Shown here: positions 18,673-20,824 of the stretch, one piece after another | Layout of the letters: every line of letters starts with the position of its first letter | How positions within the stretch are numbered: position 1 is the stretch's first letter | Source: Candidatus Palauibacter scopulicola | Lineage (GTDB): Bacteria; Gemmatimonadota; Gemmatimonadetes; Palauibacterales; Palauibacteraceae | Assembly: GCF_947581915.1 (NCBI RefSeq) | Contig: NZ_CANPWG010000030.1 | Span: forward strand, 1 to 64,000 | DNA: 64,000 nucleotides | Direction of reading: 5' to 3' | Translations under genes and position numbers: made by a program | Notes under the pieces: model-generated | What the model was told of the DNA's origin: nothing | Seen by the model: the letters and a program-made list of their open reading frames with translations, nothing else | Database searches by the model: none

Positions 18673-20244
18673 TTAGCGTGCGAAGTCCACGGTTCGCGAC
18701 TCTCGCACGACGACGACCTTGATCTGCCCCGGATATTGCAACTCGTTCTCGATGCGGCGGGCCGTCCGCTCCGACAGCCTCGCCATCTCCTCGTCGGAGA
18801 CCCTGTCCGGAGTCACCATGATCCGGATCTCCCGCCCCGCCTGGATCGCGTAGACCTTCTCGACCCCGTCCCAGGAACTCGCGATCTCCTCCAATTTCTC
18901 CAATCGCTTCACGTAGTGCTCAAACGACTCCCGCCGGGCGCCGGGGCGGGCGCCCGAGATCGCGTCCGCCGCCGTGACGAGGAAGGTCTCCGGATAGCGG
19001 GCGGGCTCCTCGCCGTGGTGCGCGCGGATCGCGTTCAGCACCCCGTCCTTCTCGCCGCACTGCTTGCACAGATCGTAGCCGATCTCGACGTGGCTCCCCT
19101 CCTTCTCGTGCGTGAGCCCCTTGCCGATGTCGTGCAGCAGGCCCATTCGCTTCACCAGTTGCGCATCGAGCGACAGCTCCGCCGCCATCGTCGCGCCGAT
19201 GAGCGCGACCTCGTGCGCGTGCTGCAACTGGTTCTGGCCGTAGCTGGTCCGGAAGCGGAGGACGCCGAGGACTTCGCGGAGCTTCGGATGCAGGTCGTGG
19301 ATGCCGAGTTCGTACAGGACCTCGTCGGCCGCCTGCCGCATCGTCGTCTGGACATCTTCCCGCGCCTTCTCCACGACCTCCTCGATGCGGCCGGGGTGGA
19401 TCCGGCCGTCGCCGACGAGGCGGTCCATCGCCAGCCGCGCGACCTCGCGGCGGACGGGATCGAAGCAGGAGAGGATGACGGCCTCGGGCGTATCGTCCAC
19501 CACGACGTCGACGCCGGTGGCCGCCTCGAAGGAGCGGATGTTCCGGCCCTCGCGCCCGATGATCCGGCCCTTCATGTCGTCGCTGGGGAGCGTAACGACC
19601 GAGACGGCCGCTTCGGAGGAGTGATCGACGGAGAGCTTTTCGATCGCCTGGGAGATGATCTTGCGGGCTTCCCGTTCGGCCTCGGTCCGGGCCCGCTCGG
19701 TGACCTCCCGCACGTGTTGCGCGGCGTCCGCGCGCGCCTGGTCGCGAATCTGGCCCACCAGCTCGCGGCGCGCGGCTTCCCGGCTGATGCCCGCGATCTC
19801 CTCGATGCGCCTTCCGAGTTCCCGTTCGCGGTCGACGAGTTCCTTCGCCCGCGTGTCGAGCTCGCCGCGCTCCGCCTCGATCTGCTCGCGGCGGCGATCC
19901 ACCCGCTCCTGCCGCTGGTCGATCTTCTCGAGCTTCCGCTCGAGCGTCTCGCTCCGCTCCAGCGTCCGCTGCTCCAGCCGCTCCAACTCGGCGCGCCGGC
20001 GCTCCGCTTCCCGGGCCGATTCCTCCCGGAGCCGCTGCGCCTCCTCGCGCCCCGCCAGTTCCGCCGCCTTGCGGAGACTGCCCGCCTCCAGCTTCGCGGA
20101 CTCGATGATGTTCCGGCCGTCGCTCTCGAGGCGGCCGCGCGCCCGGCGCAGTCCCCGCCGCTCGATCAGGATCCCCGCGACGCCCCCCGCCACGAGACCC
20201 GCGATGGCCAGCAGCATCATCGGCACGGTGATGGATTCCAGCAT
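18673..20244 (-). CDS. rny: Ribonuclease Y
   Basis: 523 residues from the ATG at 20244 (GGAG seven bases upstream). An N-terminal membrane helix (MLESITVPMMLLAIAGLVAG) is followed by a long Arg/Glu coiled coil (about 25-215). A KH domain has the motif GRIIGREGRNIRSFE, the HD phosphohydrolase domain has HDIGKG, and the C-terminal domain is conserved. An endoribonuclease that starts mRNA decay at the membrane. A farther ATG at 20301 would place the start inside the terminator hairpin just upstream and is rejected. Confidence 0.96.
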   Translation of the reverse strand: MLESITVPMMLLAIAGLVAGGVAGILIERRGLRRARGRLESDGRNIIESAKLEAGSLRKAAELAGREEAQRLREESAREAERRRAELERLEQRTLERSETLERKLEKIDQRQERVDRRREQIEAERGELDTRAKELVDRERELGRRIEEIAGISREAARRELVGQIRDQARADAAQHVREVTERARTEAEREARKIISQAIEKLSVDHSSEAAVSVVTLPSDDMKGRIIGREGRNIRSFEAATGVDVVVDDTPEAVILSCFDPVRREVARLAMDRLVGDGRIHPGRIEEVVEKAREDVQTTMRQAADEVLYELGIHDLHPKLREVLGVLRFRTSYGQNQLQHAHEVALIGATMAAELSLDAQLVKRMGLLHDIGKGLTHEKEGSHVEIGYDLCKQCGEKDGVLNAIRAHHGEEPARYPETFLVTAADAISGARPGARRESFEHYVKRLEKLEEIASSWDGVEKVYAIQAGREIRIMVTPDRVSDEEMARLSERTARRIENELQYPGQIKVVVVRESRTVDFAR

Positions 20245-20273
20245 CGCCAGACTCCACTCCTCGAACCATCTAT

Positions 20274-20305
20274 GAACAAAAAAACCGGCGGACTCATCCA
20301 CCGGT
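20274..20305 (-). terminator. Rho-independent terminator between zapA and rny
   Basis: Reading the minus strand, ACCGGTGGA pairs with TCCGCCGGT (nine pairs, one G-U) across the loop TGAG, followed at once by seven T. It ends 30 bases before the rny start, so it closes a transcript coming from zapA or from a small RNA in the gap. Confidence 0.85.
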
Positions 20306-20518
20306 GCATGCCGCTCAGATCGGACGGAACGATGCGCTCCGGCCGATCATCTATCTGAAGCTGGGGCCACGCTCTTGCGAAGCCGCCTTACGGACAGCAC
20401 AACACCGATTCCCGCTAACTCAGGTCAGGAAACGTTGCTCCGGAATCTGCACGCCGCAAGCGGAGGGTCGTCACCCATCGAACGGCCGGACTCCGGTTCG
20501 GCCGAAGCGACGAAGGAC
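20306..20518 (-). ncRNA. Structured RNA candidate between zapA and rny (6S-like by position)
   Basis: About 210 non-coding bases lie between the zapA stop and a strong intrinsic terminator. The minus strand can form a hairpin GATCGG-C-CGG ... CCG-T-CCGATC (20316-20349 region) and a second imperfect stem around TTTCC/GGGAA near 20410-20435. zapA immediately upstream of the 6S RNA gene (ssrS) is a conserved arrangement in many bacteria, so 6S RNA is the first guess. I could not demonstrate the single central bubble of 6S RNA by eye, so the identity is unproven and the 5' end is unknown. Confidence 0.4.
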
Positions 20519-20824
20519 CTACGGCGCGGTATTGCCTGCGATGGATTCAAGCCGGTCGGTCACCTCCGTGACTCGCGCCGCGACGGCGGCCGTGAGCTGC
20601 TCGACCTCGCTGCGGGCCTGGAGGAGTTCATCGGTAATCTCGAGGGCGGCAAGGATCGCGGCGCGGTGGGGTTCGGCCACACCCGTCATGTGCGCGCGTT
20701 GAATCGCGTCATCCACGTACTTCGCGCACGCCCGTGTGTGCGCCTCGCCCCGGTCCGTCCGAATCCGGTATCGACCGCCGAAGATCGTCACGCCGATCGG
20801 GGGTGAATCATCCGCTGAAGTCAT
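20519..20824 (-). CDS. zapA: Cell division protein ZapA
   Basis: 101 residues. An N-terminal beta segment (PIGVTIFGGRYRIRTD) and a C-terminal coiled coil (about 60-98) match the small FtsZ-ring-associated ZapA family, which crosslinks FtsZ filaments at midcell. Its ATG overlaps the stop of the upstream coiled-coil gene by four bases. Confidence 0.88.
   Translation of the reverse strand: MTSADDSPPIGVTIFGGRYRIRTDRGEAHTRACAKYVDDAIQRAHMTGVAEPHRAAILAALEITDELLQARSEVEQLTAAVAARVTEVTDRLESIAGNTAP

Follow-up and report, generated by a model that had tools for sequence, protein, structure and literature searches.

On the minus strand of the window (the whole stretch of DNA analysed, 64,000 nt from Candidatus Palauibacter scopulicola), the gap that separates zapA from rny contains what comparison among relatives indicates to be a real, conserved and structured RNA without a match in Rfam, and this RNA is most likely a cis-acting leader of rny rather than a separate small RNA (sRNA). 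Read from zapA to rny, a promoter-like site is followed by a structured core of 123 bases, whose hairpins covary, and by an intrinsic terminator. The fuller proposal, that it forms an autoregulated and attenuated rny 5′ leader, is given an even chance of being correct. Sequence comparison establishes the position of the promoter, the structure, the terminator and two short AUAGA words, together with their conservation, and places no 6S RNA here.

On the minus strand the genes run in the order pheT, a small coiled-coil ORF, zapA (20824-20519), the gap, rny (ATG at 20244), folD, xseA and xseB, the names being those of the first-pass annotation combined with a reading of the ORFs. The zapA ORF (20519..20824), named from that annotation and from gene order, has homologues 5′ of rny in relatives, and the rny ORF (18673..20244), which encodes RNase Y, has homologues at the same place. 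The host genus is Candidatus Palauibacter, phylum Gemmatimonadota, and the RNase Y of the window is 98% identical to those of P. denitrificans and P. rhopaloidicola, the closest named records in the rny searches. From the end of zapA at 20519 to the rny start codon at 20244 the gap measures 274 bases; no credible gene was found within it in the ORF list, and a GGAG visible at 20252..20255 is the probable rny Shine-Dalgarno sequence. For comparison, zapA-rny gaps were gathered from the order and from other families, where f1 denotes the family of the window and Palauibacter a genus within f1.

Just after zapA, a -35-like hexamer TTGCGG (20454..20459) and a -10-like hexamer AACGTT (20431..20436) are seen directly on the minus strand, separated by a 17-base spacer, and transcription would start near 20424. 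A generic sigma-70 scan did not call the AACGTT-containing site of the gap. The same pattern, TTGC-N16-18-nAnnnT, occurs at this place in 65 of 73 zapA-rny gaps across five families, while about 5.2 would be expected by shuffling. It is found in 22/25 gaps of f6, 5/5 of f3, 4/4 of f8, 7/7 of f2 and 27/32 of f1, the last made up of 15/16 in other genera and 12/16 in the genus Palauibacter. The four sequences of the genus that lack the pattern are L005-L007, which carry GACGTT, and L014, which has no clear site; L146 failed through the 300-base cut-off, and its site was present in a separate look. In f3 and f6 no other gene is visible between the promoter pattern and rny, so the promoter of those families must serve rny. 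Because the same promoter position leads straight into rny there, the gap in the window is best read as an extended 5′ leader of rny with a terminator within it; the leaders of f1, f2 and f8 are longer than those of f3 and f6, and are terminator-ended.

Conservation extends from the -35-like site at about 20460 through the start of rny, and does not include the first 50 or so bases 3′ of zapA. This bears on the alternative that the gap is the 3′ UTR and terminator of a pheT-zapA operon, with rny expressed from its own promoter. All genes are co-oriented and a terminator does follow zapA, as such an operon would have it, but the conserved part begins at the -35-like site and not at the zapA stop codon, and two conserved hairpins would be superfluous for termination, leaving roughly one chance in eight for this explanation.

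Fifteen sequences of the genus were used to build a covariance model, R2, for the conserved core on the minus strand (20278..20400), which covers the final 123 bases. Of 17 genus genomes, BLAST searches with the gap matched 13 at E < 1e-50 and three more weakly, and R2 (146.8 bits in the window) located the core once, at the corresponding position, in 16 of the 17 (E ≤ 1.5e-18). Over 43 genomes of the order R2 found nothing else below E 0.03, and its matches to other genera within f1 are only weak (best E 0.0019 in 137 kb). The one exception in the genus is G012 (L139), where rny overlaps the zapA stop codon (ATGGCTGA) with no gap at all, and promoter, RNA and terminator are all gone; the leader element is dispensable in this genome.

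The consensus fold has two hairpins upstream of the terminator, both on the minus strand. P1 (20358..20388) shows changes on both sides in 2 of 10 pairs, and P2 (20318..20348), the best-supported helix, has compensatory changes in 7 of 12. Overall, compensatory changes were found in 9 pairs compared to 2.7 in shuffles, and 95% of cells pair, in an alignment that was fitted to the model and so leans toward it; slid controls reach up to 6 pairs. The folding energy of the single sequence is modest evidence by comparison: the whole 243-base minus strand gives a z-score of -1.78, with 10 of 200 shuffles as stable, and the plus strand gives -0.92. It is the conservation seen in the alignments, rather than single-sequence fold statistics, that makes the core more than chance.

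The core ends in an intrinsic terminator on the minus strand (20278..20305), with a 9-bp stem, a 4-base UGAG loop and a run of 7 U. Taken by itself it is within chance, as a scan of 1.2 kb found one terminator where 0.6 were expected. All 16 gaps examined from the genus have it, however (2.5 expected by shuffling), as do 31 of the 32 gaps of f1 (5.4 expected by shuffling), and terminators are also seen in 7/7 gaps of f2 (1.8 expected) and 4/4 of f8 (1.3 expected, with that of L164 looking spurious). Of 20 leaders in f6, 13 have a terminator-like hairpin immediately ahead of the Shine-Dalgarno sequence, against 1.2 expected, while only 1 of 18 rny leaders in f7 has one. On these sequence counts, a terminator-like hairpin is a common component of rny leaders in some families of the phylum. 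What the first-pass annotation had drawn from the letters, namely a structured small RNA candidate on the minus strand, in a gene-free gap of about 210 bases between zapA and rny that ends in a textbook terminator, therefore stands; the covariation among relatives that it proposed as a check was found, and the lack of conservation that would have spoken against it is not the case.

That annotation had gone on to suggest 6S RNA, a suggestion that does not hold. Rfam searches of the gap, including the 6S model that had been proposed as a check, gave nothing relevant at the gathering score or at E = 10, and the Rfam 6S model had no match at E ≤ 0.001 in the whole genome of the host. This model performs poorly in Gemmatimonadota: over 298 genomes of the phylum, RF00013 matched in 28 at E ≤ 0.1, with 3 above the cut-off. 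For that reason a phylum-specific 6S covariance model, R1, was built from 17 of these matches, leaving out L111 as a suspected contaminant and, from the alignment, the near-duplicate or partial sequences L121-L123, L128, L129, L131, L133, L135, L136 and L138. L111 (G313) was among the 3 matches above the Rfam cut-off, but the ZapA and HemE of its 6S-bearing contig look betaproteobacterial, which we take as a possible sign of bin contamination. The closing stem and bubble flanks of R1 covary, with changes on both sides in 19 of 31 pairs, and the model detects 6S in 40 of the 43 genomes of the order. In the host genome its sole match at E ≤ 10 lies on another contig (G000:C58:39276-39429, locus L222; 75.9 bits), where the 6S gene has its own terminator and, upstream, a promoter-like TTGCCG...TAACGTT similar to the site in the gap. 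On the gap, with filters off, R1 gave 10.4 bits on a trivial 32-base hairpin, and the closing stem, bubble and UUGAGCC...GGGCUUCA strands typical of 6S in the phylum were not found with it. The gap RNA adjoins zapA, is of comparable length and is terminator-ended like 6S RNA (RF00013), but its fold consists of P1, P2 and the terminator, with no central bubble. The gap RNA is not the 6S RNA of this genome, and a very diverged second copy is extremely improbable.

The position next to zapA had been put forward as typical of 6S genes, and this is true in another class of the phylum and inapplicable to this family. The order zapA-6S-rny is found in L114 and L118 (f11, another class, both detected with Rfam), L178, also of f11, seems by eye to have this arrangement too, and 6S lies just downstream of zapA in L112 (f4) and L113 (f9). 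Adjacency to zapA is a feature that the gap shares with 6S genes, but also with non-6S leaders throughout the family, and synteny by itself can mislabel 6S. The zapA-6S order is probably the older one, 6S having since relocated in other families. No rny match was obtained in G044 and G047 (f4) or in G050 (f9), and two of these three have the zapA-6S order; loss of RNase Y or incomplete bins are possible causes. Within the literature collection searched, no paper on 6S RNA in Gemmatimonadota was found. As a by-product, the Gemmatimonadota model finds 6S where that of Rfam gives none in the host genome.

A serious rival to the rny-leader reading is that the gap encodes an independent, trans-acting sRNA with its own promoter and terminator, rny being merely a neighbour; this is possible, at somewhat under one chance in three. 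The unit is self-contained from promoter to terminator, 6S-like in size, structured and single-copy in the genus, and different terminator-ended RNAs occupy the same slot in f2 and f8, as would be expected of a replaceable sRNA slot. The distance from terminator to rny start codon is about 33 bases, and because so little is left, a separate sRNA whose transcription sometimes continues into rny would fit equally well. The same short distance, in which no second promoter is visible in the genus, also argues against an unconnected rny, as do the promoter directly preceding rny in f3 and f6 and the AUAGA word common to the RNA and the rny start region. The RNAs of f2 and f8 look unrelated in sequence to that of f1. 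In f2, the gaps of L155, L157, L158, L160 and L161 hold another conserved RNA, about 270 bases long (AGCCCTGTGGCTG...TGGAAATGG, with a GCGGCAGGG terminator). Searches with Rfam at E ≤ 1 gave no match on the f2 loci L157, L158 and L161, and at E = 1 nothing relevant on L144, L149, L157, L158, L161, L222 and L219.

The word AUAGAU occurs twice in the leader. The first copy (20349..20354, minus strand) lies immediately 5′ of P2, and the second (20268..20273, minus strand) follows the terminator and precedes the rny Shine-Dalgarno sequence. Across f1, ATAGA occurs within 27 of 31 RNAs, against 1.5 expected by shuffling, with 4 of the 31 lacking it, and between terminator and rny in all 31 leaders, against 2.3 expected by shuffling. 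These 31 comprise 15 sequences of the genus, which are close relatives and not independent, and 16 from elsewhere in the family, in which little else of the leader is shared. Left out were L009 (same BLAST score as L008), G012 (no gap), and G030 and G031 (rny not found); for L014-L016 a 60-base stretch next to rny was used, which extends into the coding sequence. In f7, ATAGA is found near the start in 14 of 18 rny leaders (reversed word, 1/18), and in f6 the word near rny is rare (2/20). By eye, it lies between the Shine-Dalgarno sequence and the ATG in f7 and mostly upstream of the Shine-Dalgarno sequence in f1; since its place relative to the Shine-Dalgarno sequence differs, the mechanics of the start site alone are insufficient to account for it.

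The words could instead be -10-like elements of further promoters and not RNA sites, as they are A/T-rich, lie near the start, and ATAGA is close to a -10. By eye there is no TTG-type -35 at 16-18 bases from them, and their A and T are misplaced for nAnnnT, so that this explanation is improbable. A general 5′-UTR or start signal AUAGAUG was also considered. In the genome this 7-mer is found 71 times and the reversed word 14 times, but the majority of 30 inspected contexts look antisense to coding sequence and the idea was rejected; a start test on proxy genes (0 of 39 starts in the window) was unusable, the longest-ORF proxy having evidently dropped rny itself. Likewise, a leader peptide starting at the ATG within AUAGAUG was rejected, as by eye the 11-codon reading is not conserved in L014-L016 or in other genera.

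RNase Y sites in B. subtilis follow a weak pattern, a GA within AU-rich, unstructured RNA and often with downstream structure (PMC11780869). The AUAGAU before P2 has the GA in an AU-rich single strand and structure downstream, so that AUAG/AU followed by P2 resembles this weak consensus, which comes from B. subtilis. In that species, RNase Y is described as cutting its own mRNA in the 5′ UTR and early coding region and so controlling its own synthesis (PMC10303841). As AUAG/AU followed by P2 fits the site pattern, an rny leader with basal attenuation by the terminator and RNase Y cleavage at the two words is proposed. In this scheme, transcription would begin at a sigma-70-type promoter just 3′ of zapA, and the RNA would form two hairpins before reaching the intrinsic terminator, which lies about 33 bases from the rny start codon. 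The majority of transcripts would end at that point, giving an RNA of about 130-150 nt, and read-through past the terminator would yield the rny mRNA, the terminator setting the basal level of rny. The two AUAGA(U) words, before P2 and before the rny Shine-Dalgarno sequence, would likely be cut by RNase Y itself, which would limit its own mRNA as in B. subtilis. We infer the making of the RNA, its role as a leader and not as a separate sRNA, the read-through and the cleavage.

Some observations run counter to the leader reading, as leaders in f7 mostly lack a terminator-like hairpin (17/18) and those in f6 mostly lack the near-rny ATAGA (18/20). The loss of the element in G012, the absence of the upstream word from 4 of 31 family RNAs and the weak R2 matches in other genera of f1 count against it too. 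An intrinsic terminator between a promoter-like site and a gene is the arrangement of a transcription attenuator, and the order of promoter, folded RNA, terminator and gene is shared with terminator-type attenuators and riboswitches; the gap differs from these in having no Rfam aptamer and no well-supported antiterminator. For an antiterminator fold, only a weak alternative pairing was seen, in close relatives. A closing stem, P0, formed by the 5′ part and GAGCGGCAUGCACC, was considered and rejected: it occurs in several close relatives but could not be made out in L014-L016, and its overlap with the terminator is limited to about 3 pairs.

A folded leader is also known for another decay enzyme: in E. 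coli the decay-initiating endonuclease RNase E controls its own mRNA through the rne 5′ UTR. Both the enzyme and the structure are different there. The rne hairpin is described as bound without being cut (PMC10303841). A second likeness, drawn from published description, is to the B. subtilis rny 5′ UTR, a structured leader of the same gene that is self-cut in AU-rich stretches with a stem-loop; the part of that account used here describes no intrinsic terminator (PMC10303841).

Ribonuclease leaders of self-control are thus already known, and the gap RNA most likely adds a variant. A broader and more tentative reading is that AUAGA(U) at the rny start belongs to a phylum-wide element of RNase Y autoregulation, as a cleavage site kept from f1 to f7, and that it was duplicated into a terminator-ended leader in Palauibacter and its family, where the activity of RNase Y would be read both as cutting of the mRNA and as processing or attenuation of the leader. 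Outside Bacillus, for which self-regulation of this kind is established, the zapA-rny gap offers a concrete candidate for control of the main RNA-decay enzyme in a mostly uncultured phylum.
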